Positions 2,866-19,684 of a stretch of 24,205 bases of DNA are shown piece by piece. Source of the stretch: a virus; IMG/VR virus record IMGVR_UViG_3300031208_000019, positions 1 to 24,205 of that record; one strand, given 5' to 3'. The position numbers were made by a program, and so were the translations under genes. The first letter of the stretch is position 1. Each line of letters begins with the position of its first letter. Under the pieces are notes generated by a model, which did no database searches, was not told where the DNA came from, and saw only the letters and a program-made list of their open reading frames with translations.

Positions 2866-2889
2866 CTCTAACAATGAAAGGAATGTTAG

Positions 2890-3321: not shown

Positions 3322-3951
3322 AGACTTACTAGTCACATATTCGTAAAACGAGAATAGATCATCAAATATTATAGTCTTTTTGTTTAATTCACGATATGTA
3401 AATTTCTTAAGTTCTTTCTCGGTATCGGCCCCGTGTCCTGTCCTTACTAGCACAGGTGTTGCTTTGATTTTACTAGCAGCTTTCAGATCAGTCAACTTAT
3501 CACCTACGTAATACCCACTAGAAAATTTAATATTCTTGTGTTTCTGCTCGTCCTCGGCTTTTTTAAACATGCCTAGGTTAGGTTTAGCGTAGTAATCATC
3601 TTTTTGGTTAGTGATAGAAAAATAGATTCCGTCTATGCTAGGGCATCCAGCTGCTCCTAAAAGTTTCAGCATGTGTAGGTGTACCTTATTAACATCTTCT
3701 TCTGTACACATTTTTTTGAATATTCCTGCTTGATTAGTAATAATAACAATTCCAAACCCTGCTTTTCTAAGCCCAGCAATTGCTTCTATACTTCGGTCAA
3801 CAGGAACAAACTCGCTAGGATGTTTGACGTAGTCACTTCTATTTTCGTTTATGACGCCGTCCCGATCTAATCCTATCACACACTTGGTCGGAATATAATC
3901 AATACTATGCATGTCTACTATGAGATCGTTACTCCAATGTATATTAACCAT
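3316..3951 (-). CDS. gmhB: HAD-superfamily phosphatase, GmhB-like (D,D-heptose 1,7-bisphosphate 7-phosphatase)
   Basis: A 211-residue HAD phosphatase of the GmhB/histidinol-phosphatase group. Motif I is LDRDGVIN with D29 and D31 as nucleophile and acid/base; motif II is IITNQAGI (70-77); the KPNLGMF segment (K123) is motif III; GDKLTDLKAA (D151, D155) is motif IV. The expected role is removal of the 7-phosphate from heptose 1,7-bisphosphate, between the two HldE reactions. The usual zinc-binding Cys/His set of bacterial GmhB, just before the KPxxG motif, is absent (YFSITNQKDDYYAKPNLG). ATG 3951 is chosen because it overlaps the cupin stop by 8 nt; an in-frame ATG at 3975 would add 8 residues, and ATG 3912 is also possible. 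It is the last gene of the minus-strand operon. Specificity is inferred mainly from its hldE/hldD neighbours. Confidence 0.8.
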   Translation of the reverse strand: MVNIHWSNDLIVDMHSIDYIPTKCVIGLDRDGVINENRSDYVKHPSEFVPVDRSIEAIAGLRKAGFGIVIITNQAGIFKKMCTEEDVNKVHLHMLKLLGAAGCPSIDGIYFSITNQKDDYYAKPNLGMFKKAEDEQKHKNIKFSSGYYVGDKLTDLKAASKIKATPVLVRTGHGADTEKELKKFTYRELNKKTIIFDDLFSFYEYVTSKSS

Positions 3952-4342
3952 TAGTTTTTGTCTTCTGTGAATCACCGGGCATTATTCGATAATTGTCTGC
4001 AATGCTGTCTGGTGTACTTACTTCAGTAACACTTGATCCGTCTTCTAGTGCAATTAATTGATGAGGCAGAAGTGGTGGATTGCGCCAAGTATCGCCTTCT
4101 TTTAGCTCAACTTCGACTAGCTCAGCTGTTTCTGTTTTAATGTACAGTAGTTTAAATCGACCGTTATTAACAAACCACGATTCGTCTTTCTCTTTGTGAA
4201 AATGCATGCTAAACTTAGCACCAGCTTTGTCGAACACCATTATCTTGCCACAATACTTATCGTTAGTTGCCCATATCAGCTCGTATCCCCATTCTTTTTT
4301 TACAAATCCGTGTAGCCGTTCCGTATTATTATTTTGAATCAT
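3944..4342 (-). CDS. Single-domain cupin, probably sugar-nucleotide or sugar-phosphate related
   Basis: A 132-residue single cupin. Motif 1 fits the G-x5-H-x-H-x4-E-x6-G pattern exactly (G41, H47, H49, E54, G61), and motif 2 has GDTWRNPPLLPH with H94, so the 3-His/1-Glu metal site is complete. The sequence (HGFVKKEWGYELIWA at the start) resembles the cupin half of type II phosphomannose isomerases and small cupins found in polysaccharide gene clusters. The ATG overlaps the end of hldD by 14 nt and the stop overlaps the gmhB-like gene, so it is translationally coupled inside the heptose gene block. No ADP-heptose pathway step is known to need a cupin, so its job is open: isomerase, epimerase, binding or regulatory protein. 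Confidence 0.82.
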   Translation of the reverse strand: MIQNNNTERLHGFVKKEWGYELIWATNDKYCGKIMVFDKAGAKFSMHFHKEKDESWFVNNGRFKLLYIKTETAELVEVELKEGDTWRNPPLLPHQLIALEDGSSVTEVSTPDSIADNYRIMPGDSQKTKTNG

Positions 4343-5153
4343 TAATGTAGTCCTCGATAGATGTCCAGTTCATATCTATTGTAGTGTTTATCTTAGATAG
4401 GTTTGCGCAGGTGTAGGATTGGTATTGTTGTTTTAAGTTATCTGGCATAGGTACATACTTTATAATTGCATTATGTTTTTCAGCTATTGCTCTCGCAACT
4501 GTTTCAAAACTGATAGCAGTTCCTGTACCAACGTTAAAGATTCCTTGTGCATTGCTATTGAGCATCAAGCTATGCACTTGACAAACGTCCTCAACGCATA
4601 CAAAGTCTCTTTTATATAGATCTGAATTATTAAATAGCGTGATAAACTTGTTGTCTTTTGCTTGCTTAGTAAACTTGGTATAAGGACTTGCCTGATCACC
4701 CTTGTGATCTTCACCCGGGCCGTATACGTTGAAGTATCTAAATCCTTTTATGTTTATGTTAAACTCGTTAATATGTTGTATAACATATCGATCGAACAAA
4801 TATTTTGACCAAGCGTACGGCGACTGTGGTTGCAGCTTATCGTCCTCATTAAAATGTGTAGTAGTAGTCCCGTATACACTTGCACTTGACGCATATTGAA
4901 AATCAACGCCGAGTTGATTACACTCGTTAATCAGCCGTTTACTGAATTCAAAATTCTGTTCTAAGATCTGATCTACGTCTGTATAGGTAGTGTAACTGAT
5001 TGCTCCTAGATGTATAACTTGGTCGTATCTCTCGACTGGCGGGAACGCCGATTGTTTGTACTCCCAACCTTCTACTGCATGACCTTGTTGTAGTAGATGA
5101 GCTACTAGATTTTGTCCTATGAATCCGTGATGTCCTGTAACTAATATTCTCAT
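4329..5153 (-). CDS. hldD: ADP-glyceromanno-heptose 6-epimerase-like SDR enzyme (HldD)
   Basis: A 274-residue extended short-chain dehydrogenase/epimerase. The NAD(P)-binding glycine motif is VTGHHGFIG (G7, G10, G13); the catalytic YxxxK is Y113-AWS-K117, with the Ser/Thr element at YASSASVYG (87-95). FRYFNVYGPGEDHKG (138-152) is the part that points to HldD (compare the family's FNVYGP.E.HK), supported by YKRDFVCVEDV and FNVGTGTAIS. HldD converts ADP-D-glycero- to ADP-L-glycero-beta-D-manno-heptose, the last step of the pathway. It is shorter than E. coli HldD (310). Its ATG overlaps the hldE stop as ATGA, typical of coupled translation. UDP-sugar epimerase activity is the main alternative. 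Confidence 0.87.
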   Translation of the reverse strand: MRILVTGHHGFIGQNLVAHLLQQGHAVEGWEYKQSAFPPVERYDQVIHLGAISYTTYTDVDQILEQNFEFSKRLINECNQLGVDFQYASSASVYGTTTTHFNEDDKLQPQSPYAWSKYLFDRYVIQHINEFNINIKGFRYFNVYGPGEDHKGDQASPYTKFTKQAKDNKFITLFNNSDLYKRDFVCVEDVCQVHSLMLNSNAQGIFNVGTGTAISFETVARAIAEKHNAIIKYVPMPDNLKQQYQSYTCANLSKINTTIDMNWTSIEDYINDSK

Positions 5154-6292
5154 TTGCTGGCCTTAATTATAGTTGTAGTAGAAAAGTTTTTTAGTGTTGG
5201 GAAGATATACACGTCTGCTAAATTATTGCCTACAACCTGCTCTACGGTGTAGTCTCCGCCTTTGACAATAATACCAGGGCGTATCTGTTTGATGAGATTA
5301 TAAGGAGTATCCTCGTCAAATATGAAAGCACTATGTACCCAAGGCAGTATCTTTATTTGTTCTAGCCTAGTCTGCTGATTATTTATTGGTCTACTATTAC
5401 CTTTTAATCGTTTAACACTATCGTCGGAGTTAATACCTACTATTAACTTTTTGCCTAGACTGCTAGCCTTTTTAAGTAATTCTAAATGACCTTGATGTAA
5501 AATATCAAACACACCGTTGGTAAAAACAACAGTATTGTGTATATCACTAGGTTGCAATATATAGGTTCCTATATGCTTTACACTTTCACTTGCTGCTTCT
5601 ACTGCAATTTCGAGACTTAGTTGATAATCTTTATTTTGAACAAGCGCATAAACAAATGCGGCAACAAAACAATCACCTGCGCCGGTAACGTCGTTTACTT
5701 CAACCTTTACTGGGTTGACAGTATATTCAACATCGTCGATTTGCGCAATTAGGCAGTTATCAGCATCAGTAACTATAATATTGCTACCCCAACTAGAAAA
5801 TCCTAGTTCCTTATATTCTTTTTTATTTGGTTTTACTAACCATGCTCCTTTGTATCTACTTGCTATTCGTTTAGGATCTACAATAATTTTACATCCGGCT
5901 TGATTTATTAAGTCGATAATTTCTTCTACTAAATCTAGTGCTCCTTTATTATAGTCGCTGAGTATTACGTAATCGTAAATACTCAGCTCCTTGGTTCGTA
6001 GATCTCTTAGCAGCTTGCTGCTATCGGCAATGTGATCGTCGTCTATTCGTGATACATAATGATTATCACATATTACTCTAGTCTTTATACTCTTAATGTT
6101 GTTAGGGTTATATAAGTCAACATCAACACCCAAGCTTTTTAGATTTTCGTAAACTAGCCCTGCGCCGCCTAGTGTCTCTACTATTTTTTGTTGTTTAACA
6201 ATAGGAACTGGTGCTTCTGGACTAAGTCTTTCCGAGGTGCCGTAGATATATCTGTCGATTATGATATCGCCTATAACTAGTACTTTTGTCAT
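5150..6292 (-). CDS. hldE: Compact bifunctional heptose-7-phosphate kinase / heptose-1-phosphate adenylyltransferase (HldE)
   Basis: A 380-residue fusion. The N-terminal PfkB/ribokinase domain (about 1-245) has GDIIIDRYIYG (8-18), ERLSPEAPVPIV (21-32), LGGAG, the VDPKR strand and the anion hole/catalytic NDVTGAGDCF (200-209, base D207). The C-terminal nucleotidyltransferase domain (about 254-380) has FTNGVFDILHQGHL with HxGH at H266-H269, VGINSDDSVKRLKG, VKGGDYTVEQVVG and the terminal STTTII. It phosphorylates D,D-heptose 7-phosphate at C1 and, after GmhB, adenylylates heptose 1-phosphate. It is about 100 residues shorter than E. coli HldE; much of the loss follows GGAGLVYENLKSLGVDVDL, in the kinase domain. 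Both active-site motifs are retained. The ATG at 6292 lies 15 nt after the Nudix stop; the Shine-Dalgarno is weak (AGG), so coupling is likely. Confidence 0.92.
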   Translation of the reverse strand: MTKVLVIGDIIIDRYIYGTSERLSPEAPVPIVKQQKIVETLGGAGLVYENLKSLGVDVDLYNPNNIKSIKTRVICDNHYVSRIDDDHIADSSKLLRDLRTKELSIYDYVILSDYNKGALDLVEEIIDLINQAGCKIIVDPKRIASRYKGAWLVKPNKKEYKELGFSSWGSNIIVTDADNCLIAQIDDVEYTVNPVKVEVNDVTGAGDCFVAAFVYALVQNKDYQLSLEIAVEAASESVKHIGTYILQPSDIHNTVVFTNGVFDILHQGHLELLKKASSLGKKLIVGINSDDSVKRLKGNSRPINNQQTRLEQIKILPWVHSAFIFDEDTPYNLIKQIRPGIIVKGGDYTVEQVVGNNLADVYIFPTLKNFSTTTIIKASK

Positions 6293-6307
6293 TTTGTGCC
6301 TATTTGG

Positions 6308-6748
6308 TTAGTTATCAAGTAGATTGATAGTTTGGAATACTGTTTCGAGTTTTCTTAGATTTATTTTACTTTGAAGAGTATTGCGTAACCCGTGATGCAA
6401 CGGCTTAGGCCATTTATTAAAACTACACCAAGCGTATCCGTTATGTTCCTCATTTAATACCGGTATAAACTCTGAATCAATAATACACAAGTACGTATGA
6501 AAGTAAAATCTATCGTCTACACTGACGAAGCTTTCTAGCGGTAACGTCTTTTTGATAAACGGAAGTTGTCCGATTTCTTCTTGTATCTCGCGTAGAAGCC
6601 CTTCGAACGGCGTTTCGGAGTTTTCATTTGTTCCTCCGACTAACCCCCAAAGGTCAGACTGGCGGCCGCGTGTTCTGTGCAGAAAAAGAAACCGATGTGT
6701 GTCTAGTGTATAAAACAGTGCTCCGCTACAAACTATTTTGTTGCTCAT
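6308..6748 (-). CDS. Nudix hydrolase
   Basis: A 146-residue single-domain Nudix protein. The Nudix box G-x5-E-x7-REUxEExGU is perfect: G39, E45, R53-E54, E57-E58, G60. The segment HRTRGRQSDLWGLVGG before the box is typical of Nudix enzymes that act on nucleotide-linked substrates. The reaction would be hydrolysis of a nucleoside diphosphate linked to another group; NTP cleaning, RNA cap removal, or NDP-sugar (even ADP-heptose) cleavage are all possible and not separable by sequence. A GAAGGA Shine-Dalgarno is 11 nt before the ATG. It lies between gp15 and hldE, with 48 nt and 15 nt gaps, and no promoter box or terminator was seen in those gaps. Confidence 0.92.
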   Translation of the reverse strand: MSNKIVCSGALFYTLDTHRFLFLHRTRGRQSDLWGLVGGTNENSETPFEGLLREIQEEIGQLPFIKKTLPLESFVSVDDRFYFHTYLCIIDSEFIPVLNEEHNGYAWCSFNKWPKPLHHGLRNTLQSKINLRKLETVFQTINLLDN

Positions 6749-6796
6749 ACAAATAGTTATCCTTCTAAATCAATAGCTATATACCGACTGGGTAAG

Positions 6797-8209
6797 TTAA
6801 CCCTCTAGAACAATGCGCCACGATCCCACGGGGTAGTCGCCGTCTACTGACCTGAGCCATTCTCCATTTTTGAAACGATATTGCGTGCTAGTAGCTAAGT
6901 TAGTGGTGTAGGTTACTTCAGTAACCTCACTGGCATTGAATATAATGCGCCAGCTAGTACCAGTCCACTCAATAATATCGTTGGCATTAGCAACTAACTT
7001 AGTGCCGTCGCCATTCTCCCAAACAGCCGCACTCTCTGTAGCAGTGTTCGACCCAATGTCCTCTAGTATAAGAAACCGTGCAGCCGGCGACAGAACGCTT
7101 GTTGGGTTAAATCTAGTGGGATCTATTACATAATCTATATTAGTCCTTCCGTCAATAATAGTGTCTCCTGGGAAAGTGTCGATGTCAAAGTCGATGTTAA
7201 TTTTGCCTTCGTCGTTGACGTCAAGTGAGACTGTGCCAGTTAATGTACTGTCGTTGTCTTTGTTGGTAATAAAAATAGTAGTTACTCCGGCGTTATACGA
7301 TCCGGGAAATGCTTCAAATATTTTCCTCCAGGACTCAGTGCCTACTGTGCCGTTTGTTATTAGCTGAGCTGTGCCTTTTTCGAGATACAACGGCCACTGC
7401 ATATAGTTTACGTTAGCCATCTGATCCGATAGTTCTGTTTGTGCCACTGCTCCGTAACGATTGTTAACTTTGCCTGGGGTAGCAAAATCGTCGTACTGAT
7501 TGATCTCAGGTGTGCTAACTCCAGCTTCGATGGTTCCTCGGGTCTCGTCAAACATTGATGTAATGATGTTGGTGATTACTCCCATTTTTTTGACCTTTAT
7601 AGGAGGACTAATGTAGATAGGTATACTAAACGATATAGAAGCAACATCTATCTCACTGTCGACACCCACTGGTATGCTGCGACTAGACCAGGAAATGCTA
7701 TCAAGATTTACTACAGTGATGCTAGTCCAGTCGATAAAGTTGTCAGTGGTCTGTATCTCAAGAGCCGGATTAAACATTACTAGTATCTGCTCAAGCAACT
7801 GCAACTTTTGATCAGTGTTACTTGCCCAAATATCCGAAGTTAATCGAAGAGTATAAGGAGTGGGCATTAGTCGCTCTACAGTATAGTTCTTACCTTGGTA
7901 ATTAAGATACTCGTTGTTGTTGCTGTCGTATGCACGTTCTCTAATATTAGTCTTGCGAGTGTAAGATGAATCGCTAAGCCTATCCCTGTCTAACTCAAGA
8001 CCAGTTACGTATACGCTTATTCTAGGTGCACTAGGTAGCTTGTTCTCACTGTTCTCTCGAATAACGTTAGCAACCTGTCGAGTCATATCTCCGTACAACA
8101 CTGGAACTTCTTTTATGTTGCCGGCACCGTCTTGGACAGGGAAGTTGCTCATGATGCGCATCATCTGAGTTATATATCTTCTAATCTGAGCGTCGTAGAA
8201 AAATCTCAT
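6797..8209 (-). CDS. 15: T4 gp15-like tail terminator / proximal sheath stabiliser with C-terminal extension
   Basis: A 470-residue protein whose first ~215 residues match T4 gp15, the hexameric ring that ends the tail and stabilises the sheath at the neck. Shared features are the opening FFYDAQIRRYITQMMRIMSNF, the LPRI-like APRISVYVTGLE, the YTVERLMPTPYTLRL strand, QKLQLLEQILVMFNPALEIQ, and SISFSIPIYISPPIKVKKMG (T4: WSLTFEVNGWMYPP). T4 gp15 has 272 residues; here about 230 extra residues follow, with WTGTSWRIIF, YRFKNGEWLRSV and GSWRIVL, aromatic strand motifs also seen in gp14 and gp18. ATG 8209 has GGGAGA 6 nt upstream and lies 14 nt after the gp14 stop. The minus orientation, opposite to gp13 and gp18, is unusual. 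Confidence 0.82.
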   Translation of the reverse strand: MRFFYDAQIRRYITQMMRIMSNFPVQDGAGNIKEVPVLYGDMTRQVANVIRENSENKLPSAPRISVYVTGLELDRDRLSDSSYTRKTNIRERAYDSNNNEYLNYQGKNYTVERLMPTPYTLRLTSDIWASNTDQKLQLLEQILVMFNPALEIQTTDNFIDWTSITVVNLDSISWSSRSIPVGVDSEIDVASISFSIPIYISPPIKVKKMGVITNIITSMFDETRGTIEAGVSTPEINQYDDFATPGKVNNRYGAVAQTELSDQMANVNYMQWPLYLEKGTAQLITNGTVGTESWRKIFEAFPGSYNAGVTTIFITNKDNDSTLTGTVSLDVNDEGKINIDFDIDTFPGDTIIDGRTNIDYVIDPTRFNPTSVLSPAARFLILEDIGSNTATESAAVWENGDGTKLVANANDIIEWTGTSWRIIFNASEVTEVTYTTNLATSTQYRFKNGEWLRSVDGDYPVGSWRIVLEG

Positions 8210-8223
8210 GTATTCTCCCTATC

Positions 8224-9384
8224 TTAATTATCTGGTTTTGGTCTAAGTGCTTTAGACAAGCTTTGTCTTTCTTCTACTACCTCACCGTCGATTATGCTGG
8301 AGTTGAAGTTATTAACAAAGCTGCCTCGTTGGGTTTGTCTTTCATCTACGTTACTTAATGTCATTCTAATGTCATCGTAGACTTTTTTCCAGCGATCACC
8401 GTCATACTGAAACATTCTATTGGGCATAAAGTCTGTTCGTAAGAAGTAATCACCGTCCATTGTATCTCTGGGAAACTGAATTCCCATTCCAAAAGGTAAT
8501 CCGTTAGGAGTAGCATCCCCGCCGCCTATCATGTAACCTGTATAACCAGATCGAGCAGGTCTGTCTGTGATCTCGTCAGCAGTAGTAGTAATACCACTAG
8601 CATAAAGATCATCGCTGTCGGCAGTTCTTAACGAAACGCTGCCGTCGTCGTTTGTATCTATAGTGTAGTAATGACTGATATCAAATCCAGAGCGAGGGGA
8701 ATCTGCTTCTGCTTGCGCTACTACTGCTTGACTAATCTGCATTTCTTTATCATAAGTCGATAGTAGGTCTCGCAGTGTTTCGTCGCTGTCTTCGTCAGCG
8801 GGCTGGTCAAGTATGTCAGCGTACTCTTGGCTGTCAACGATTTGTTTAAGTTTAAGTCTATATAAATGGGGATACCAAGTATGACTAAAACCTTCTGCTG
8901 CTCGTGTTACGTCCTCAACTACATAGAATCGTTTTAGACTAATTGAATAATCATTAAGTGCATATTCGTCTTTTAAGTGCGGCAGTTCGATAACATCACC
9001 TGAAATAATTTTGCGTCCTATGGTTTTTACGCTGCTGTTAATATGAATAGTCAAGAATAGAGTGTCGTTACTTAAAAACAGTCCAAATGCCGACAAGTCA
9101 AAGTCGATATCTTGTAAACTATAGATACCACGAATGTTGTAAATATCCGGGTCGTACTTCCGGTCACGATTTTCTAAAAATAATAGATCTTGAATATTAG
9201 TTTCTGACAGAGCATCGTACGTGGGCTGGTCAGCAGTTCCTTGTCCTTCTTCGGGATTTAGGGGACCTAGATATTTGTGTATGTTAACGTCAGTGCCACC
9301 AACTACAAACATTTCCTGTATTTGTCGATCAAGAAAATAATAGTCGTTGCCACGTTCTGGTTTATATAATGATAAGCGAGGGAT
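8224..9384 (-). CDS. 14: T4 gp14-like neck protein, apparently with a non-ATG start
   Basis: About 386 residues, resembling gp14 neck proteins of marine T4-like phages: KPERGNDYYFLDRQIQE, GGTDVNIHKYLGP, LLFLENRDRKYDPDIYNIRG, DFDLSAFGLFLSNDTLF, GRKIISGDVIELPHL and RFYVVEDVTRAAEGFSHTWY. gp14 forms the neck ring with gp13 that joins head and tail. The C-terminus carries DGDYFLRTDFMPNRMFQYDG followed by DRW, like modules in gp18. Start: a strong AAGGAG (9391-9396 on the minus strand) is followed by ATT (9387) and ATC (9384), not ATG/GTG/TTG. The frame continues up to a TTG at 9423, which has no Shine-Dalgarno and lies upstream of a late promoter box. The first ATG (9312) would remove conserved residues. 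I give 9384 as the best guess (6 nt spacing). Confidence 0.8.
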   Translation of the reverse strand: MPRLSLYKPERGNDYYFLDRQIQEMFVVGGTDVNIHKYLGPLNPEEGQGTADQPTYDALSETNIQDLLFLENRDRKYDPDIYNIRGIYSLQDIDFDLSAFGLFLSNDTLFLTIHINSSVKTIGRKIISGDVIELPHLKDEYALNDYSISLKRFYVVEDVTRAAEGFSHTWYPHLYRLKLKQIVDSQEYADILDQPADEDSDETLRDLLSTYDKEMQISQAVVAQAEADSPRSGFDISHYYTIDTNDDGSVSLRTADSDDLYASGITTTADEITDRPARSGYTGYMIGGGDATPNGLPFGMGIQFPRDTMDGDYFLRTDFMPNRMFQYDGDRWKKVYDDIRMTLSNVDERQTQRGSFVNNFNSSIIDGEVVEERQSLSKALRPKPDN

Positions 9385-9407
9385 AATGTTCTCCTTGGTT
9401 CCTAGTG

Positions 9408-9415
9408 TATTTATT
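9408..9415 (-). promoter_or_regulatory. T4-type late promoter box for the gp14-gp15-heptose operon
   Basis: AATAAATA on the minus strand, about 12 nt before the AAGGAG Shine-Dalgarno of gp14. A start of transcription near 9402 would give a short leader containing the Shine-Dalgarno, and would exclude the TTG at 9423. It is the only such box I found between operon genes from 9424 down to 3316, so it may drive the whole minus-strand block. Confidence 0.6.
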
Positions 9416-9436
9416 TGATTCAAAACTTAATGTAAC

Positions 9437-9444
9437 GATAAATA
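9437..9444 (+). promoter_or_regulatory. T4-type late promoter box before gp13 (GATAAATA)
   Basis: GATAAATA ends 19 nt before the gp13 ATG, with GGAGAA (9451-9456) between. It is 21 bp from the oppositely directed box for gp14, so the two neck genes are fired from divergent late promoters. Confidence 0.65.
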
Positions 9445-9463
9445 TGTTATGGAGAACCACTAA

Positions 9464-10450
9464 ATGTCGAACTTGACCACACAAAAACAAGAAGTATTTG
9501 ATTACGTAAAAGCGTTTCTGGGCGGCGGCATGGTCGACGTTGAACTTGACCCTATTCACTACGAGACTGCTCTAAAAAAAGCACTATCAAAATTTAGACA
9601 GCGAGCAGACAACTCTGTTGAAGAGTCGTATATTTTTATCACAACTACAGCAGATCAAAACGACTATACGCTAGCTAATGAAGTAATTGAAGTAAGGAAA
9701 ATATTTAGAAGAAGTATTGGGTCACGCCCTGCCACATCTCAAGCAGGCGGCCCAATATTTACTCAATCATTTACAGCAGTGCCGGGACAATTGTCTACCT
9801 TTGATGTAAACTACAATCTAATGGCAGTGCAAAATGTTGTTGTAAAAGTGAACGGAGTAGACACAAAGGACTACGCTATTGATACTAATAATAGATCAAT
9901 TACGTTTATTACACCGTTGTCACCAGCTGATGTTGTAGGTGTTAGTCTTTATACATCTGGCGAAAACGGCGGCGGAACGTTGTTTGACCCGTTTAGTTTA
10001 GCTTACACAAACGCTTACTTACTAAACAGCTCTAATATGGGCGGGCTGGCCACTTACGATATGTTTAGTCAGTATCAGGAACTAGTAGGACGGATGTTTG
10101 GTAGTTTTATTGAGTTTAAATGGAACACTTCAGCTAAAAAACTAACCTTGTTACAACGACCAAGGGCCGAAGAAACACTGATGCTATATGCTTATAATTA
10201 TAGACCAGACGATCAGTTATTGACAGATTATCTAGCAGGGCAATGGATTAAAGATTATACTCTAGCCGGTTGTAAGTATATGCTAGGAGAGGCACGCTCA
10301 AAATTTGCTACAATCGCCGGCCCACAAGGAGGCAGTTCACTAAACGGTGAAACACTAAAAGCGGAAGCGCAAGCTGAAATGGAAAAACTTGAGATTGATG
10401 TAATGCAGCAAGTAGCCGGCGGAGTGGGGTACGGCTTCGCTATAGGATAA
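9464..10450 (+). CDS. 13: T4 gp13-like neck protein
   Basis: A 328-residue neck protein; T4 gp13 has 309. Family-like features are the N-terminal helix pair (EVFDYVKAFLGGGMVDVELD, HYETALKKALSKFRQRADNS), the YIFITTTADQNDYTL strand, VIEVRKIFRRSIG, a central beta domain (AVQNVVVKVNGVDTKDYAID), then FEFKWN-like FIEFKWNTSAKKLTLLQRPR and a C-terminal helix ending in VGYGFAIG. gp13 with gp14 closes the filled head and forms the platform for tail attachment. ATG 9464 follows GGAGAA by 7 nt. In T4, genes 13, 14 and 15 run together on one strand; here gp14 and gp15 are divergent from gp13. Confidence 0.87.
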   Translation: MSNLTTQKQEVFDYVKAFLGGGMVDVELDPIHYETALKKALSKFRQRADNSVEESYIFITTTADQNDYTLANEVIEVRKIFRRSIGSRPATSQAGGPIFTQSFTAVPGQLSTFDVNYNLMAVQNVVVKVNGVDTKDYAIDTNNRSITFITPLSPADVVGVSLYTSGENGGGTLFDPFSLAYTNAYLLNSSNMGGLATYDMFSQYQELVGRMFGSFIEFKWNTSAKKLTLLQRPRAEETLMLYAYNYRPDDQLLTDYLAGQWIKDYTLAGCKYMLGEARSKFATIAGPQGGSSLNGETLKAEAQAEMEKLEIDVMQQVAGGVGYGFAIG

Positions 10451-10455
10451 ATTGG

Positions 10456-10484
10456 TTGACAAGTTGATGTTCTCCTAGTATAAT
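10456..10484 (+). promoter_or_regulatory. Sigma70-type (early) promoter for the P-loop gene
   Basis: TTGACA (10456-10461) and TATAAT (10479-10484) are both perfect consensus hexamers with a 17-bp spacer. Start of transcription is expected near 10491, about 18 nt before the TTG start of the next gene. It lies in the 58-bp gap after gp13 and indicates early transcription by unmodified host RNA polymerase. Confidence 0.85.
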
Positions 10485-10502
10485 TCAATAAACTAGGAGA
10501 AC
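10469..10502 (+). promoter_or_regulatory. Perfect 11-bp inverted repeat covering the -10 edge and the RBS
   Basis: GTTCTCCTAGT (10469-10479) pairs with ACTAGGAGAAC (10492-10502) across a 12-nt loop. The right arm holds the AGGAGA Shine-Dalgarno and the left arm is its exact complement. RNA reading through from gp13 would hide the RBS; RNA started at the local promoter lacks the left arm. A protein operator is the alternative. Confidence 0.7.
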
Positions 10503-10508
10503 AATAGC

Positions 10509-11054
10509 TTGATTAAAAAACCTAAACTAATGGTTATCGGACACGCACAACACGGTAAAGATAAGGCGTGCGAGGCACTAGTCAAATACTACAACTTAGC
10601 ATACGAATCTAGTAGCCATTTTGCTGCCCGTAAATTTATCTTTGACGAAATCAAAGATCATTACAAATACAACACTATAGAAGAGTGTGTAGCAGATCGT
10701 GTTAACCATAGACGGATGTGGTATGACATGATCTCTAATTACAACTACCCTAACCCTGCCCGCCTTGGCAAAGAACTGTATAAGGAAAATGACATCTATT
10801 GCGGTCTTCGACACAGACGTGAATTCAATAGTATGAAAAACCAAGGTGTGTTTGATTGCGTAATATGGATAGATCGCAGCGATCACATGCCGCCTGAAGA
10901 TAAGTCTAGCATGACGCTCGAACCATGGATGGCAGATTTTATAATTGACAATAACGGAACTGAAGCAGAGCTGGAAATCAGAGTATGTGAACTAATGGAC
11001 TACCTGTTGCCTGCAAGATACGGGCTATTGTCTGCCTCAGTGATCAGGCGTTAA
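10509..11054 (+). CDS. P-loop nucleotide kinase-like protein (possible dNMP kinase)
   Basis: A 181-residue cytoplasmic protein beginning with a strand and a P-loop of the form GxxxxGKD: LMVIGHAQHGKDKACEALV (G11, G16-K17-D18). The rest is helix-rich (HFAARKFIFDEIKDHY, ECVADRVNHRRMWYDMI) followed by VFDCVIWIDRSDH, which looks like the second core strand of a P-loop kinase. The P-loop with Asp after Lys and the overall size fit phage deoxynucleoside monophosphate kinase-like proteins (T4 gp1 type); specificity is not proven. The start is TTG 10509, 8 nt after AGGAGA; the in-frame ATG at 10530 has no RBS of its own. It has its own early promoter, unlike its neighbours, fitting a role in nucleotide supply. 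It overlaps the convergent HNH gene by 18 bp. Confidence 0.75.
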   Translation: MIKKPKLMVIGHAQHGKDKACEALVKYYNLAYESSSHFAARKFIFDEIKDHYKYNTIEECVADRVNHRRMWYDMISNYNYPNPARLGKELYKENDIYCGLRHRREFNSMKNQGVFDCVIWIDRSDHMPPEDKSSMTLEPWMADFIIDNNGTEAELEIRVCELMDYLLPARYGLLSASVIRR

Positions 11055-11372
11055 GTCGCCCTGTCGCCAGCGTACACCCGTTTTTTGCAGGATACGCTGG
11101 CAGTTAGCGCACACAGTCTTCAAGTTGTTTGGACGGCAACTATTTAGATCTCCGTCAATATGATACACGTCAAACTGCTCCGGAAAATTAGACCTAAACC
11201 CGCACTTCTCACAGTATTGCTTTTTCTCGTATTTGGCCTGTTTCCACTTGGGTATTCCGTGCCCTACGCCGTTGCGCTGACATGTCCCGCATAGCTTACG
11301 ATAATATGTTTTTCCTTCTTTTTTATAATTTATAGCAGCTACTCGCTGTCCGCACTTGCATAATGGTCTCAT
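11037..11372 (-). CDS. HNH endonuclease-like zinc protein
   Basis: A 111-residue basic protein with four Cys pairs: C5/C7, C28/C31 (LCGTC), C54/C57 (YCEKCGF) and C88/C91 (VCANC). The core HNH signature is YHIDGDLNSCRPNNLKTVC, with H71, D73 and N82-N83. The last HNH His is replaced: CANCQRI, where CxxCH is usual, so catalytic competence is uncertain. Such small free-standing HNH genes are common in T4-like phages as homing endonucleases or packaging-related nickases; this one could be either. It lies on the opposite strand to both neighbours, between the early kinase gene and gp18. Upstream, GTAAATA lies 4 nt before the ATG, one mismatch from the late box. Confidence 0.8.
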   Translation of the reverse strand: MRPLCKCGQRVAAINYKKEGKTYYRKLCGTCQRNGVGHGIPKWKQAKYEKKQYCEKCGFRSNFPEQFDVYHIDGDLNSCRPNNLKTVCANCQRILQKTGVRWRQGDLTPDH

Positions 11373-11440
11373 CCTGTATTTACCTAGCCTTTTTGGTGCC
11401 TTTTCTAGGGCTATAATTGGGTAATTTTAACGGAGAACAA

Positions 11441-11447
11441 CTAAATA
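11441..11447 (+). promoter_or_regulatory. Weak candidate late promoter box before gp18 (CTAAATA)
   Basis: CTAAATA differs at the first base from the ATAAATA core; it lies 36 nt before the gp18 ATG with AAGGAG (11469-11474) downstream. A TATAAT hexamer at 11412-11417 in the same gap has no convincing -35. The 111-bp gap holds no other signal that I can see. Confidence 0.3.
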
Positions 11448-11483
11448 CAGTTAGATAAGAATTATCCAAGGAGAATAATAATC

Positions 11484-14400
11484 ATGGCATTAGTATCACC
11501 AGGCGTAGAAGTCAATGTAATTGACGAAAGCTTCTACACGCCGGCAGCTGCCGGCACAGTACCTATGATCTTCGTAGCAACTGCAGAAAACAAGCCAGGC
11601 ACCAGCGGCATAGGTGTTGCTCGTGGCACACTAAAAGTAAACGCCGGCAAACCATATCTAATCACTAGTCAACGAGAACTGAGCGAAACGTTTGGTGATG
11701 CGTTGTTCTATTCAGACAATAATAACAATATGATTCACGCAGGTGAATTAAACGAATATGGCATACAAACTGCTTACTCGCTGTTAGGCGTTAGTAATCG
11801 AGCATACGTTGTTCGAGCAGACTTAGACCTAGGTAAGTTACAAGCTTCGTCTACTGCGCCAGGTGGCGAGCCTGCTGGCGGAGCTTATTGGTTCGACACC
11901 CAGGTTTCAAGATTTGGACTGCTAGCGTGGAATTCTGCTCCGGTAACTACAACAGGCGGCCAGAGCTTTTCTACAGTGCCACGTACTGTAATTATTGAAA
12001 CAAATGACATTGACGCTAACACTGATGCACCTAAAAGATCAATAGGTCAAATTGGCGAATACGCAGTTGATGCTACAACTACAGCAAACCGTGTGTGGTT
12101 CAAGACAGCAGGAGTAGTAGGAAGTCCAGTAACATCAGGTGATTGGGTAATAGTTGGATCGTCAGAATGGAAAGCAAGTCATCCTGTAGTACGCGGTACT
12201 AATCCTAACCCGGTGCTTGTGCCAGGCGATGACTTTACTATTAACGGCACTTTAATTACTATTTCAGGAAATTCCGTTGAAGATGTAGCTAGCGACATTA
12301 ACGTTCAGTTCGCAGCAAACGGCATCTATTCAGCAGTGGTCAACGGCGCATTAGAAATTTATTCAGACAGCGCAGATGTAGTGATCGGCGGCCCTGGCAC
12401 GTTAGTTGGATTTGAAGGTTCTACTTCAGACGACGGCGCTCTTGGTATCACTGAAGGTACTTACAGCGCTCCTCGACTAGCAATCCAGCCACACACTAAT
12501 GTTCCGACATTTAAGCGAACTGATGTAAGTCCTGCACCGACTGGTTCGTTGTGGCTAAAGACCACAACTCCAAACGGCGGCGCAGAGTTTTCATTAAAAC
12601 AATATAACGGTGATACCCAGTTGTGGGAAACCCTACGCGCACCTCTATTTACTTCACCAGAAGCTGCATTGTTTAGTTTAGATAAGGCAGGTGGCGGAAG
12701 AAATCTAAGAGTTGGCGATATTTATATTAAAGCAAATATCGAGGAACAAACTCCGCAGGTTGCTAACTATAAGTTCTATCGTCGAGTAACGCAAGGCCCT
12801 ACTCAAGTAGAAAGCTCTAAAATATCCGAGCAATTAATCGCTGGCACAAGCTATGAGTTTGACGTATCGGAATCAAGGGTAGGCGAAATTCTCCTTAGTT
12901 CTCCGAGGACTATAAATTTTGAAGCAGTAGGGGCAGCACAAGACGCAGAAATAATTGCAGCAGCAATTAACTCAGCAGGCTTTACTAATATTGTTGCACT
13001 TGTTGATGCGTCAAATAGACTCTTAATTCAACATAACACTGGCGGAGAAGTTCGATTAGCAGACACAACAAATGCACTAAACTTAATTGGATTTGCAGCA
13101 TTTGATCTTAACACAAGCGTCGGTACAGTAAACCTTTACGCAGCGCCAAAAGGCGACGTCGACAACGATTTTGTAGCATCAAGTTGGAAAGAACTTGAAT
13201 ATACAGCAGACCCAGATGAGCCACTAAGCTTAACAGCCGACGGCGAACTTTGGTACAGCAGTGTAGTTGACGAAGTTGACATAATGATACACGACGGCGA
13301 GAACTGGGTAGGGTATCAAAACTACAGTGCGGATTACGAAGAAACAAACGCAACAGGACCGATTGTCAGTGCAACAGAGCCTGACAGGCAGAGAGATGAT
13401 ACTGCTCTAGTAGACGGCGATCTTTGGATTGACACTGCTGATATTGATAACTATCCTGGTGTGCATCGTTATAACGACACACTACAAGAATGGGAATTGC
13501 TTGATAAGTCGGATCAAACCAGCGAAAACGGCATACTGTTTGCTGACGCTAGATGGAGCGACGCAGGCAGCAACAGTGCAGCGGCTGACATAGACGAGCT
13601 GTTGGTTTCGGACTACTTAGACCCAGACGCGCCGGATCCGGCTCTTTACCCAAAAGGAATGTTGCTGTGGAACTTGCGTAGAAGCGGTTTCAATGTTAAG
13701 CGTTTTGTTCGTAACTATATTGACCTAGCAGGTGATAACCAAAGATTTCAAGAAATAGGTAACAGCGGTAATCTTGAAGATCAACCAATGGCTACCTATT
13801 ATGCAAACCGTTGGGTTACTGACTCAAGTAACAACATTGACGGCTCCGGCTCGTTTGGCAGAATTGCACAACGTAAGTCAGTAGTCCAGGCGCTGCAAGC
13901 AATGGTTAACAGTAACCAAGCAATCCGTGACGACGAAACACGTCAGTTTAATTTAATAGCTACTCCTGGTTATCCAGAACTAATCGGCGAAATGATCACC
14001 CTGAACTACGATCGTAGACTTAGTGCGTTTGTAGTTGGTGACACGCCAGCTAGATTAACACCGGATGCTACTACACTTAATGAGTGGGGTTCAAACGTTA
14101 ACCTTGCAGTTGAAGATAACATAAACGGTGCGGTTAGCCGTGACGAGTACCTTGGTATGTATTACCCATGGGGCTTTACTAGTGATAACAACGGCAATAA
14201 CATTGTTGTTCCGCCAAGTCACATGGCACTGCGTACATTAATACTAAACGACCAAGTGGCGTTTCCGTGGTTCGCTCCAGCAGGCACTCGCAGGGGCGGC
14301 GTAACTAACGCATCGGCATCAGGCTACGTTAGCAGCGAAGGAGAGTTTATAAGTATTGCACTGAATACTGGCCAACGAGACACACTGTACAGCAATAGTA

Positions 14401-14801
14401 TTAATCCGATTACGTTTATTAACGGAGCAGGTCTTGTAGTATTTGGTCAAAAGACTCGTGCAAGAAATGCAAGTGCGCTGGATCGTATAAACGTTGCACG
14501 TTTGATTGTTTACTTGCGCGGTCAGCTTGAGTTACTGGCTCGACCTTATTTGTTTGAGCCAAACGATAAGATCACACGTGATCAGATCAAGGCAGCAGCA
14601 GATTCGCTTCTTCTAGAACTAGTAGGGCTACGTGCGTTGTACGACTTCTTGGCAGTGTGTGACGAATCAAATAACACACCGGCAAGAATAGATCGCAATG
14701 AACTTTACTTAGATATTGCAATCGAACCTGTTAAAGCAATTGAATTCATCTATATTCCATTGCGTATTAAGAACACAGGCGAGATTGCATCACTAGGATA
14801 A
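11484..14801 (+). CDS. 18: T4 gp18-like contractile tail sheath protein, greatly enlarged
   Basis: A 1105-residue tail sheath subunit (T4 gp18: 659). The N-terminus MALVSPGVEVNVIDES and YLITSQRELSETFG, and the C-terminal ~350 residues (AYPEL-like YPELIGEMI, FPWFAPAG, VFGQKTRARNASALDRINV, LFEPNDKITRDQI, CDESNNTPARIDRNELYLDI), are the conserved sheath core that polymerises and contracts. Residues ~125-700 are inserted material. It holds repeated aromatic strand motifs (GGAYWFDT 132-139; GSLWLKT 354-360 with YNGDTQLWETL; GELWYSS 587-593 with GENWVGY; GDLWIDT 645-651 with YNDTLQEWELL) and two segments (~246-327 and ~452-545) that resemble each other and recall flagellin/hook IN-type repeats. These probably protrude from the tail surface. 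AAGGAG lies 9 nt before the ATG. Confidence 0.92.
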   Translation: MALVSPGVEVNVIDESFYTPAAAGTVPMIFVATAENKPGTSGIGVARGTLKVNAGKPYLITSQRELSETFGDALFYSDNNNNMIHAGELNEYGIQTAYSLLGVSNRAYVVRADLDLGKLQASSTAPGGEPAGGAYWFDTQVSRFGLLAWNSAPVTTTGGQSFSTVPRTVIIETNDIDANTDAPKRSIGQIGEYAVDATTTANRVWFKTAGVVGSPVTSGDWVIVGSSEWKASHPVVRGTNPNPVLVPGDDFTINGTLITISGNSVEDVASDINVQFAANGIYSAVVNGALEIYSDSADVVIGGPGTLVGFEGSTSDDGALGITEGTYSAPRLAIQPHTNVPTFKRTDVSPAPTGSLWLKTTTPNGGAEFSLKQYNGDTQLWETLRAPLFTSPEAALFSLDKAGGGRNLRVGDIYIKANIEEQTPQVANYKFYRRVTQGPTQVESSKISEQLIAGTSYEFDVSESRVGEILLSSPRTINFEAVGAAQDAEIIAAAINSAGFTNIVALVDASNRLLIQHNTGGEVRLADTTNALNLIGFAAFDLNTSVGTVNLYAAPKGDVDNDFVASSWKELEYTADPDEPLSLTADGELWYSSVVDEVDIMIHDGENWVGYQNYSADYEETNATGPIVSATEPDRQRDDTALVDGDLWIDTADIDNYPGVHRYNDTLQEWELLDKSDQTSENGILFADARWSDAGSNSAAADIDELLVSDYLDPDAPDPALYPKGMLLWNLRRSGFNVKRFVRNYIDLAGDNQRFQEIGNSGNLEDQPMATYYANRWVTDSSNNIDGSGSFGRIAQRKSVVQALQAMVNSNQAIRDDETRQFNLIATPGYPELIGEMITLNYDRRLSAFVVGDTPARLTPDATTLNEWGSNVNLAVEDNINGAVSRDEYLGMYYPWGFTSDNNGNNIVVPPSHMALRTLILNDQVAFPWFAPAGTRRGGVTNASASGYVSSEGEFISIALNTGQRDTLYSNSINPITFINGAGLVVFGQKTRARNASALDRINVARLIVYLRGQLELLARPYLFEPNDKITRDQIKAAADSLLLELVGLRALYDFLAVCDESNNTPARIDRNELYLDIAIEPVKAIEFIYIPLRIKNTGEIASLG

Positions 14802-14811
14802 TATGCACACA

Positions 14812-14841
14812 TAATGCAGCGGTTTAACGACCGCTGCATTA
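14812..14841 (+). terminator. GC-rich stem-loop between gp18 and gp19
   Basis: TAATGCAGCGGT (14812-14823) and ACCGCTGCATTA (14830-14841) form a perfect 12-bp stem with a 6-nt loop, 10 nt after the gp18 stop. There is no T-tract, so it may be a weak terminator or an mRNA 3'-end protector rather than a full intrinsic terminator. The gp19 late promoter box follows at once. Confidence 0.6.
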
Positions 14842-14844
14842 GCA

Positions 14845-14852
14845 CATAAATA
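14845..14852 (+). promoter_or_regulatory. T4-type late promoter box before gp19 (CATAAATA)
   Basis: CATAAATA ends 22 nt before the gp19 ATG, with an AGGAGA Shine-Dalgarno (14864-14869) in between. The predicted start is near 14858. Confidence 0.6.
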
Positions 14853-14874
14853 CAAGTGATAATAGGAGAAAAGA

Positions 14875-15519
14875 ATGCCAATCACAACTTTACAGAACAT
14901 TAGTGTACCAACAGAAGGAGGCGGATCTAACTCGTCTCTGCTAATGCCCAAGCTACAATATCGCTTTAGGGTATTATTTGACAGTTTTGGAACAGCTGGC
15001 GGTCCAGACGGCGTCAGGGAAGTTTCGCGACAGGTAATTGACGTTACTCGTCCTAACCTAACATTCGAGCAGATTACAATTGATGCTTACAACAGTAGGT
15101 CTTATCTTGCAGGTAAGCATACCTGGGAGCCAATCACTCTCAACTTGCGTGAAGATGCGAACAACAACATTCAAAAAGTTGTTGGTCAGCAACTGCAAAA
15201 ACAATTTGACTTCTTTGAACAGTCGAGTGCAGTATCAGGCGGAACCTACAAGTTCCAAACAAGAATTGAAATCCTAGATGGCGGCAACGGAGCAAATGGG
15301 GCTAACGTTATTGATCGATTCCACTTAGTAGGTTGCTATATCGAATCAGCAAACTATAACACGCTAGCGTATGCTACTAGTGACGCAGTAACAGTTGCAT
15401 TGACTATACGTTATGACAACGCTATTCAGTTCGGCGCTGACGAACAGCAAAACGGCATTGGCGAAAGCTTTGCCCGTGCAGTTGCAGACACAGCAGGCGG
15501 CACTCAAGCTACCGGCTAA
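14875..15519 (+). CDS. 19: T4 gp19-like tail tube protein
   Basis: A 214-residue tail tube subunit (T4 gp19: 163). Typical tube-fold strands are LQYRFRVLFDSFG (28-40), VREVSRQVIDVTRPNL, QITIDAYNSRSYLAGKHTWEPITLNLRED (the long beta hairpin), the helix KVVGQQLQKQFDFFEQSS, YKFQTRIEILD, and RFHLVGCYIESANYNTLAYATSDAVTVALTIRYDNA. Hexamers stack inside the gp18 sheath to form the DNA channel. It follows gp18 with its own hairpin, late box and Shine-Dalgarno, and is closed by a strong terminator, so it can be expressed as a separate abundant mRNA. Confidence 0.92.
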   Translation: MPITTLQNISVPTEGGGSNSSLLMPKLQYRFRVLFDSFGTAGGPDGVREVSRQVIDVTRPNLTFEQITIDAYNSRSYLAGKHTWEPITLNLREDANNNIQKVVGQQLQKQFDFFEQSSAVSGGTYKFQTRIEILDGGNGANGANVIDRFHLVGCYIESANYNTLAYATSDAVTVALTIRYDNAIQFGADEQQNGIGESFARAVADTAGGTQATG

Positions 15520-15539
15520 CTTATATTTGGTTGGTGTTA

Positions 15540-15574
15540 CCAAAAACAGAGACTTTTACAGTCTCTGTTTTTGG
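15540..15574. terminator. Strong hairpin terminator after gp19
   Basis: CCAAAAACAGAGAC (15540-15553) and GTCTCTGTTTTTGG (15561-15574) form a perfect 14-bp stem with a 7-nt loop. T-runs on both strands make it possibly bidirectional. It is 20 nt after the gp19 stop and 25 nt before the next late box. Confidence 0.88.
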
Positions 15575-15598
15575 TTGTCTGTTTACTTAATCATACGA

Positions 15599-15606
15599 GA
15601 TAAATA
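15599..15606 (+). promoter_or_regulatory. T4-type late promoter box (GATAAATA), 5 nt from the ATG
   Basis: GATAAATA is followed by only five bases before the ATG at 15612. If the box occupies -13 to -6 as in T4, transcription begins at the A of the ATG. No Shine-Dalgarno lies between or just before it. Confidence 0.6.
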
Positions 15607-15611
15607 CTGAT

Positions 15612-16841
15612 ATGAGCTTCTTAAATAATTTTCTAGACAATCTAAATGCACGAACTAATGAAGTAACCCTTAGAGATGCCCGCCATGCCCACCAATTATT
15701 TACAGAGCACGGACTTGCGCTTGCACCTAAAAACAAGTTCTTGTATCATGTTGTATTTCAAACAAGAGACGAAGTAGGCAACCACACTGATTCAAATACT
15801 GCAAAGTTCCAAAAGGAAATAGGTGTACTAGCAAAGAGTGTCGAACTGCCTCAGTACAGAGCAAGCATTGAAAACAAACAACAGTATAATCGAAAGAAGA
15901 ACGTCCAAACTCGCATAGACTATCAAGACTTAACTATTAAGTTTCACGATGATAACACTGGCATGACAAGAGCGATGCTTCAGGAGTATTATAAGTACTA
16001 TTACAATGACGGTAGGCACCAGTTAAAACAAGGTGCGTACGATCCGCGAGACAAGTACAACGAGAGAGTGCCACGATATGGGTTAGACACAACTAACCAA
16101 GGACCGTTCTTTGACTATATTAAAATTTTTCAACTTGCAAGAAAGAAGTGGTTTAGTTATACACTAGTAAATCCGCTGATCAGTCAATGGGGTCACGACG
16201 TATTAGAATACGGCGACACAGGTGGTCAAATGGAAAACACCCTAGTACTGGCATACGAGAGCGTGATATATAAAAACGGTAACATTGATAGTGACTTACC
16301 TGCTGGGTTTACCTCAAACGAAACAAGGTACGACAAGGTTTATAGTCCACTTCAATATCCTGAACAAGAAGATGACAGTATTTTTTCTAACATACTTGGC
16401 CCGAAGCTTAACTCGTCGACAGGAAATACTCCAAGAAGAACGTTACCAAAACGAGCTAGCAACAGTGATAGCAAGGAGCAAAAATCCAATCTTGCTAATT
16501 TAGGCAGAGGATTAATAGGTGCCCTTCGTGACATTGAAGTACCTACACAAAATACTCAACTAGCAACTAATACCTCTTCGCTGCCGTCTAGCGGCGCAAA
16601 CTTGTCTAATCCCGACTCGTTAATAACCGGATTAAATTCCAACCCTAGAGCAAAAGAAAGTTTTACTGCAAGGGCACTTAATGCAAACACTGTAGAAGGC
16701 ACAAGTTATGCAGATTACGTTGCTACTAGTGCCGACGGTAGAGAAGCAATAGACGCAGATTTGCGTAGCAAAATATCAACTGGTGATAGAAAAACATCAT
16801 CGTTTGCACAGAGTGCAATTAACAGCGACGGAGCACAATAA
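15612..16841 (+). CDS. Tail tube/baseplate tube-initiator-like structural protein
   Basis: A 409-residue protein. Its first ~230 residues look like the tail-tube fold family (gp19/gp48/gp54): KNKFLYHVVFQTRDEVGNH, a loop, KEIGVLAKSVELPQYRASIE, QTRIDYQDLTIKFHDDNTG, a helical MLQEYYKYYYNDG and a late strand MENTLVLAYESVIYKNG. It contains the Tyr/Asn-rich REST typical of marine T4-like homologues. The last ~170 residues are Ser/Asn/Ala-rich low-complexity sequence without recognisable motifs. A role at the baseplate-tube junction (gp48/gp54-like) or as a second tube protein is inferred from fold signs and position after gp19. There is no Shine-Dalgarno; a late box is 5 nt upstream. Its TAA overlaps the next ATG by one base. 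Confidence 0.7.
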   Translation: MSFLNNFLDNLNARTNEVTLRDARHAHQLFTEHGLALAPKNKFLYHVVFQTRDEVGNHTDSNTAKFQKEIGVLAKSVELPQYRASIENKQQYNRKKNVQTRIDYQDLTIKFHDDNTGMTRAMLQEYYKYYYNDGRHQLKQGAYDPRDKYNERVPRYGLDTTNQGPFFDYIKIFQLARKKWFSYTLVNPLISQWGHDVLEYGDTGGQMENTLVLAYESVIYKNGNIDSDLPAGFTSNETRYDKVYSPLQYPEQEDDSIFSNILGPKLNSSTGNTPRRTLPKRASNSDSKEQKSNLANLGRGLIGALRDIEVPTQNTQLATNTSSLPSSGANLSNPDSLITGLNSNPRAKESFTARALNANTVEGTSYADYVATSADGREAIDADLRSKISTGDRKTSSFAQSAINSDGAQ

Positions 16842-17206
16842 TGGCACGGTCAGATAGTATAAACCCACCAGTCAACCCGGATTCTACAACCAGGTTCTTT
16901 AATAATTTTTATAGCCAAGAAATATCATTTAATGCAAGCGAAGTAGACGCTGTTATTGGGTACTTCTTAAAAAGAGGGTTTGACAAGATTGCTGCCACTA
17001 ATACCGCCAGTATTATCTTACAACAAGCGGCGACTGATAACATTACTGTGTTTCAATTAATTGACACGTTAAAAGGAGCAACTGACGTGCAGCTCAGTAA
17101 CGTAATTGCACAGATACTCAACTTGAATAGGAGCAAAACCAGCACCATAGGTTACAAAGTAGCAAGTCTAACTCAATTGTTTGACCAACGACAGATCATA
17201 GTATAA
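16841..17206 (+). CDS. Conserved marine T4-like phage protein, probably structural
   Basis: A 121-residue, mostly helical protein: FFNNFYSQEISFNASEVDAV, a helix around GYFLKRGFDKIAATNTASIIL, NITVFQLIDTLKGATDVQLS, and a C-terminal region with RSKTSTIGYKVAS. I know similar unnamed proteins next to tail genes of marine T4-like phages, but no function. It is joined to its neighbours by TAATG overlaps on both sides, so it is made together with the tube-like protein and gp4. No catalytic motif, signal peptide or membrane segment is seen. Confidence 0.78.
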   Translation: MARSDSINPPVNPDSTTRFFNNFYSQEISFNASEVDAVIGYFLKRGFDKIAATNTASIILQQAATDNITVFQLIDTLKGATDVQLSNVIAQILNLNRSKTSTIGYKVASLTQLFDQRQIIV

Positions 17207-17655
17207 TGCCACGCTTTGCTCAAGGGAAGTTTACTCTAAAGAACCCAGACAAATATGTAGGTAATAAAATTCCCACATATAGAAGTGGGTGGGAATTTCA
17301 CTTTATGAAATTTTGTGACGAGCATCCGTCAATCTCTCAATGGGCCAGTGAAGCAATCAAGATTCCTTATAAAAATCCGCTTACTGGCAAGCCGTCAGTG
17401 TACGTTCCGGATTTCTTTATTGCATACAACGACAAAGGTGGAAAGCAGAGAGTAGAGCTAATAGAAGTAAAACCTGCTAGTCAAGCTATAAAGGAAAGGC
17501 TAGGTCGTTCTAAATTCAATCAAACCCACTACGTAATAAATCAGGCCAAGTGGGAGGCTGCTCGTGCATGGTGCAAGCAGAAAGGCATTATTTTTAGAGT
17601 AGTCACTGAAGACGACATCTATACTGGAACCAAAGGCAACAGCAAGCGACGATAA
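17206..17655 (+). CDS. 4: T4 gp4-like head completion protein
   Basis: A 149-residue basic protein matching T4 gp4 (also called gp50/gp4 head completion): the opening RFAQGKFTLKNPDKYVGN (T4: YRQGRYNPVNPQKYIGD), TYRSGWEFHFMKFCDEHP, ISQWASEAIKIPYKNPLTG and VYVPDFFIAYND. The family has a restriction-endonuclease/TnsA-like fold, and the site residues are here: E30, D69 and E87-V88-K89 (PD-x-ExK). It acts on packaged heads before tail joining; a DNA-end trimming activity is suspected in the family but not shown by this sequence. It overlaps the preceding stop by one base and its own TAA overlaps the next late box. Confidence 0.87.
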   Translation: MPRFAQGKFTLKNPDKYVGNKIPTYRSGWEFHFMKFCDEHPSISQWASEAIKIPYKNPLTGKPSVYVPDFFIAYNDKGGKQRVELIEVKPASQAIKERLGRSKFNQTHYVINQAKWEAARAWCKQKGIIFRVVTEDDIYTGTKGNSKRR

Positions 17656-17658
17656 ATA
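17651..17658 (+). promoter_or_regulatory. T4-type late promoter box before gp16 (GATAAATA)
   Basis: GATAAATA covers the stop codon of gp4 (17653-17655) and ends 26 nt before the gp16 ATG. The predicted start is near 17664. Confidence 0.6.
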
Positions 17659-17684
17659 ATGTTAGCACATAATGGGATTAAACT

Positions 17685-18182: not shown

Positions 18183-18220
18183 CATAGGTAAAAACTATGT
18201 ACACTGTTATACCTGTTATT

Positions 18221-18228
18221 GATAAATA
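18221..18228 (+). promoter_or_regulatory. T4-type late promoter box (GATAAATA)
   Basis: GATAAATA ends 23 nt before the ATG at 18252, with AGGA (18239-18242) as Shine-Dalgarno. A second near-match, GATAAATC (18241-18248), lies 3 nt before the ATG. Confidence 0.6.
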
Positions 18229-18251
18229 AAATATAACTAGGATAAATCTAC

Positions 18252-18746: not shown

Positions 18747-18747
18747 A

Positions 18748-19662: not shown

Positions 19663-19684
19663 TTACAGTTGAATAAGACAAATT

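Follow-up and report, generated by a model that had tools for sequence, protein, structure and literature searches.

A promoter spacer complementary to its own start site may tie translation of a phage kinase gene to its sigma70 promoter

In a marine T4-like phage, the spacer of a sigma70-type promoter would also serve as the left arm of an RNA switch that ties translation of a P-loop kinase gene to the gene's own promoter and denies it to read-through RNA, a reading to which we assign a probability of roughly 0.75. The DNA analysed, hereafter the window, is the whole stretch of 24,205 nucleotides of IMG/VR record IMGVR_UViG_3300031208_000019 (positions 1 to 24,205). RNA from the kinase promoter would start at about 10491, past the left arm, and be translated from an open Shine-Dalgarno and TTG start codon. 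RNA started upstream, for the most part at the late-type promoter that serves the preceding gp13-like gene, would carry both arms and go untranslated, as its Shine-Dalgarno and start codon would be folded into an interrupted stem of 19 bp. Synthesis of the kinase would thus be confined to the period of host-type promoter activity, and the late polycistronic read-through RNA would be silent. We infer where transcription starts, when each RNA is made and how strongly translation is blocked, and we call the sigma70 promoter early by assumption from its type. Judged from sequence, the promoter-hairpin is a real feature and the pairing is under selection, because relatives keep it with different letters.

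The promoter, TTGACA (10456-10461) and TATAAT (10479-10484) separated by 17 nt, is the sole 12/12 match within positions 1-20000, and it begins about 5-6 nt after the gp13-like stop codon (Table 1). Segment 10469-10479 (GTTCTCCTAGT) is the exact reverse complement of 10492-10502 (ACTAGGAGAAC). The first-pass annotation had described this 11-bp repeat as pairing the ribosome binding site; the 11 bp are exact, but the size was understated, as the inner helix has 12 bp (10468-10479/10492-10503) and is followed, after one A.A mismatch, by an outer helix of 7 bp (10460-10466/10505-10511). In this outer helix, TAGCTTG, start codon included, is paired with the final CA of the -35 box and the AGTTG next to it. 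The left arms (10460-10479) lie between the promoter hexamers and overlap them, as had been claimed for an arm ending inside a perfect promoter, and the kinase hairpin thus has its left arm in or upstream of its own promoter, the arrangement of the T4 e/soc type. Neither the sequence nor the listing of terminator-like sites revealed a terminator between gp13 and the kinase, so read-through RNA is to be expected.

Table 1. Features at the junction of the gp13-like and kinase genes, in window coordinates
Feature	Position	Strand	Basis or remark
T4-like late promoter motif ATAAATA	9438..9444	+	20 nt before the gp13-like gene start
gp13-like head-tail adaptor (neck) gene	9464..10450	+	PHROG 211 head-tail adaptor Ad2, E 1.6e-31; proposed source of read-through RNA
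sigma70-type promoter, TTGACA-17-TATAAT	10456..10484	+	12/12 match; most relatives have a sigma70-type promoter here too
Outer left arm CAAGTTG	10460..10466	+	Its CA belongs to the -35 box; partner 10505-10511; RNA fold
Inner left arm TGTTCTCCTAGT, anti-Shine-Dalgarno	10468..10479	+	Promoter spacer plus first -10 base; exact complement of 10492-10503
Predicted transcription start	10491	+	7 nt after the -10 box; from hexamer spacing
Inner right arm ACTAGGAGAACA	10492..10503	+	Shine-Dalgarno AGGAG at 10495-10499
Outer right arm TAGCTTG	10505..10511	+	TTG start codon 10509-10511; sequence and RNA fold
P-loop kinase gene, deoxynucleoside monophosphate kinase-like, 181 aa	10509..11054	+	PHROG 139, PHROG 38514

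The two RNAs differ sharply in their predicted folding (all stem energies given here are predictions). The read-through RNA (10456-10515) reached -25.8 kcal/mol, compared with a shuffle mean of -7.1 (z -7.6), a value attained by 0 of 200 shuffles, and formed a stable helix over the start site, with the kinase start region unpaired at 0.06-0.07. RNA beginning at 10491 was no more structured than its shuffles (z 0.56), leaving the start site open. These results bear out the earlier proposal that the stem can form in read-through RNA and not in RNA from the gene's own promoter. Among the 23 gene starts tested in the window, only those of the kinase and of the gene at 129 had a start region that was almost completely paired (unpaired 0.07 and 0.08; rank 0). 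Co-transcriptional folding, upstream translation or RNA helicases could open the kinase stem.

The start at 129 belongs to a second promoter-embedded hairpin (70-151), which has a perfect outer helix of 17 bp and an inner stem (-52 kcal/mol for 55-190, z -7.4). Its left arm contains the late-type motif GCTAAATA and its right arm a Shine-Dalgarno and ATG 129; by hairpin layout, gene 129-1088 has the classical T4 e/soc polarity. A late-type hairpin at this place was not supported as a family property, being present in 4 of 39 relatives of that gene.

The gene arrangement fits a late origin for the read-through RNA. The window holds 12 exact ATAAATA motifs, nine of them at most 130 nt upstream of a same-strand gene (6% expected by area), and these nine stand 5-27 nt before their genes, once 105 nt. 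That gp13 RNA is late is plausible because one such motif precedes the gp13 start by 20 nt and none occurs between gp13 and the kinase; nor does the kinase promoter match the T4 late promoter (TATAAATA). Downstream of the kinase are an HNH gene on the opposite strand and then the tail sheath gene.

The kinase matched the dNMP kinase family PHROG 139 (E 3.2e-11) and PHROG 38514 (E 9e-52), and had no match in Pfam. The profile search recovered no chain of the solved T4 enzyme at E 0.01 and gave a weak match of 23 residues to a dephospho-CoA kinase structure. A longer reading frame is excluded by the in-frame TAG at 10494-10496. Public annotations of the homologues from Roseobacter, Rhodobacter and Sulfitobacter phages (H26-H48) read MazG-like, Cof hydrolase or thymidylate synthase, names that look unreliable or derived from fusions. 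Elsewhere in the window we observed a sugar cluster on the minus strand (3316-6292; HldE-like, epimerase and GmhB-like, of ADP-heptose type, assigned by motifs only) with an adjoining cupin-like gene, a nearby carbamoyltransferase gene (1081-2859, plus strand; Pfam) and, among the structural genes, a protein with a TnsA-like endonuclease N-terminal domain (17206-17655, plus strand; Pfam E 6e-24).

The evidence that the pairing is selected comes from the kinase family. Most relatives that have a gp13-kinase junction, or a similar one, carry a sigma70-type promoter directly before the kinase, and in 38 of 40 units a codirectional ORF ends within about 60 nt of it. We analysed 39 non-redundant kinase relatives with their own sigma70 promoter, leaving the window out, and scored the energy of the duplex between spacer and start site while shuffling the spacer alone and keeping the promoter hexamers. 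The duplex averaged -8.55 kcal/mol vs -5.40 in the shuffles (KS 2.5e-9), and 15 of the 39 relatives had p<0.05, where about 2 were expected. When spacers were swapped among relatives, own pairs gave -8.55 and swapped pairs -5.33 (permutation p 2e-4), and for the 19 spacers less than 55% alike the values were -9.27 and -5.21 (permutation p 2e-4). In the control of 73 random viral promoters, the duplex energies were -4.82 vs -4.44 (KS 0.48; swap p 0.20). The relatives are not fully independent, but the outcomes survive strong thinning. Consistent with these results, the start region was less accessible in read-through RNA than in shuffles in two separate samples of relatives (0.28 vs 0.37 and 0.33 vs 0.42), while in own-promoter RNA of the same samples accessibility was 0.55 and 0.60; a coding control did not have lowered accessibility.

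Individual relatives illustrate how the pairing is kept while its letters change. L155 pairs CATTTTATTTTTCTAA with TTAGGAGAATAGAATG, start codon included, L510 pairs GTTCCTCTGTGTT with AACGCAGAGGAAC, and L517, L477, L143 and L542 pair with yet other letters. In relatives, too, the right arm falls on the Shine-Dalgarno or start codon, at times including the latter. Like the kinase gene of the window, these homologues from T4-like marine phages (L155, L477, L510, L517 and others) have a sigma70 promoter right after a codirectional gene and a spacer complementary to its own start site; they differ from the window's gene in their arm sequences, and some homologues lack the pairing or are leaderless-like. 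The trait is not universal, as in about one third of the relatives the pairing did not go beyond chance. G.U pairs were in weak excess among arm mismatches (29/78, 37%, vs 27% in shuffles), and we do not rely on this.

Two wider generalizations were rejected. Complementarity is not a general property of phage promoters, as 85 random ones had no overall bias, even if stems of at least 8 bp numbered 4 vs 0.3 expected. Nor is it general to the promoters of these phages, since 11 other sigma70 promoters in the relatives' own genomes were unbiased (0 of 11 at p<0.05).

Other layouts were also observed in the family. About 13 further kinase relatives (among them L481, L484, L487, L489, L501, L507, L513, L522, L535, L538, L544 and L548) lack a Shine-Dalgarno and place their ATG 3-9 nt downstream of the -10 box, which resembles the layout of leaderless mRNAs; we conjecture that leaderless starts would favour own-promoter RNA too. 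In L145, L148, L162, L166, L167 and L215, the -10 box and the start upstream of the kinase lie within another near-palindrome, ATATACTTTAAAGTATAT or a close variant of it. In L639, L647 and L648, the late-motif-like CYTAAATA lies inside the sigma70 spacer of several promoters, which possibly serve both phases.

A DNA search of annotated records found no close phage relative. Among the viral contigs, L001, L002 and L004 keep the promoter, the TTG start and the stem. Compared with L004, 2 of 53 promoter-hairpin positions are changed, vs 60 of 357 in the coding sequence (42 of 119 at third positions). The change 10472 C->T turns a G-C pair into G.U and 10507 G->A turns U.G into U-A, and both keep the pairing. 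L002 has two further apical changes outside the 12-bp and 7-bp helices, one of which disrupts a weak 2-bp TA/TA helix. The exact letters of the repeat are limited to the four closest contigs, and the repeat fails as a conserved sequence motif. The proper test is conservation of the pairing; checked in this way, the conservation that the first-pass annotation had looked to is found in the pairing, which recurs across relatives, and not in the letters.

The same layout was found before unrelated genes. The pattern TTGACA..TTCTCCT..AGGAGAA matched 97 stretches in viral contigs, vs 44 for a left-arm control matched in dinucleotides, and 21 units vs 5 once duplicates were removed and a -10 box, the correct order and an ORF start were required. 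Many matches that lacked a -10 box or a start codon were discarded as coding-sequence coincidences. The seeds extended much further in the real set, up to 16 bp, vs 0-2 extra in the control, and codirectional ORFs end near TTGACA in most units. Perfect arms of 15 bp were found in L223 (6800-6865), where TTGA runs into CATTCCGTTTCTCCT, the partner of AGGAGAAACGGAATG, and in L281 (143-190), where TTGA runs into CATAATTGTTCTCCT, the partner of AGGAGAACAATTATG; in both, the CAT of TTGACAT is paired with the ATG start codon. The genes concerned include those for a clamp-loader-like AAA ATPase (L230, L261) and an endonuclease VII-like protein (L231, L313), as well as other phage genes (L281, L223, L299). 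They resemble the kinase gene in the TTGACA, the anti-Shine-Dalgarno in or beside the spacer, the -10 box, the Shine-Dalgarno and the start codon, but they are not kinase homologues and are known by pattern match alone. Complementarity of 12-19 bp between promoter spacer and start site was also seen in bacterial genome contigs (L451, L434, L442), before genes for a PLP-dependent enzyme and a MarR-type regulator and a short ORF.

Could the stem have another role? It might serve mainly to part gp13 RNA from kinase RNA, as an RNase target or a transcription block, and mask the start site only secondarily. A long perfect stem directly after the gp13-like stop, predicted in read-through RNA only, would make a good processing site, but processing has no need of a right arm kept on the Shine-Dalgarno or start codon across relatives. 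As for a transcription block, no T run follows 10511, so the stem is not an intrinsic terminator, and it is absent from the listed terminator-like sites. We consider this explanation improbable. More improbable still is that the palindrome is a DNA operator on which a dimeric repressor controls the promoter. Its half-sites do lie 23 bp apart, about two helical turns, straddling the -10 box and the start; however, the arms vary between relatives and yet match their own partners, the changes to G.U in L002 and L004 break the DNA palindrome and not the RNA stem, L012 retains ACTAGGAGAAC without the left arm, and the motif has no other copy in the window.

Very little likelihood attaches, too, to the idea that the main kinase RNA starts upstream and carries the stem, which a factor, an antisense RNA or temperature would open. 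The kinase transcription start is placed from hexamer spacing, which gives this idea some room, but the left arm is flanked by the -35 and -10 boxes of a consensus promoter, in the window and in relatives, so that RNA from that promoter cannot carry it, and the leaderless-like relatives fit use of the promoter. Least credible of all is chance complementarity between a strong Shine-Dalgarno and a pyrimidine-rich spacer: complements of the Shine-Dalgarno are short and about 1.3 of 85 promoters would be expected to have at least 7 bp, but the z of -7.6 at the kinase, the covariation in the family, the lack of bias at other promoters and the spacer swap all disfavour it. On these grounds, the operator, chance and a processing site are less likely than promoter-dependent translation.

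In IS10/Tn10, fold-back inhibition of the transposase gene works in a similar way: RNA from its own sigma70-type promoter is translatable, while RNA from outside promoters folds over the start site. There, a transposon shields itself from flanking host transcription, whereas the kinase is a replication/nucleotide gene in a phage structural operon, adjoining neck and sheath genes rather than being a transposase in an insertion sequence, and its arm is inside the promoter spacer. A literature search returned nothing direct on an early-promoter version or on IS10 read-through control.

The comparison with T4 e and soc made in the first-pass annotation was correct: in T4 e, soc, 49 and I-TevI, the helix forms only in upstream-initiated RNA and late promoters lie inside the left arm (PMC3014915). 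As in these genes, and in segB and Aeh1 mobE, the start site of the kinase would be masked in read-through RNA and the own promoter lies in the left arm, which would give an arm-less, translated RNA (PMC3014915; PMC2988022). The effect reported for the T4 e hairpin is 100-fold (PMC3014915), and in a 2010 review the genes regulated by such hairpins were all late genes (PMC2988022). The difference is that the T4 hairpin genes have late promoters and block early or middle read-through, while the kinase has a consensus sigma70 promoter and its blocked RNA is presumably late.

Covariation across the family and recurrence in unrelated genes lift the arrangement above a curiosity. For promoter-locked translation as a recurrent, convergent device, we see the balance as even: the spacers of embedded early sigma70 promoters would complement their own start site, the CA of TTGACA would in some cases pair with the start codon, translation would come only from own-promoter RNA, compensatory change would have gone on over large distances in the kinase family, and leaderless starts may be an alternative solution. 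As the left arm serves both promoter spacing and RNA pairing, a genome-wide prediction follows, namely that embedded sigma70 promoters should have spacers matching their own start site. If true, the textbook polarity of T4 control would be reversed here, with early RNA translated and late read-through RNA silent, and promoter usage would be read at the ribosome by sequence alone, without a protein factor. The way in which expression of embedded phage genes is inferred from RNA levels would then change.
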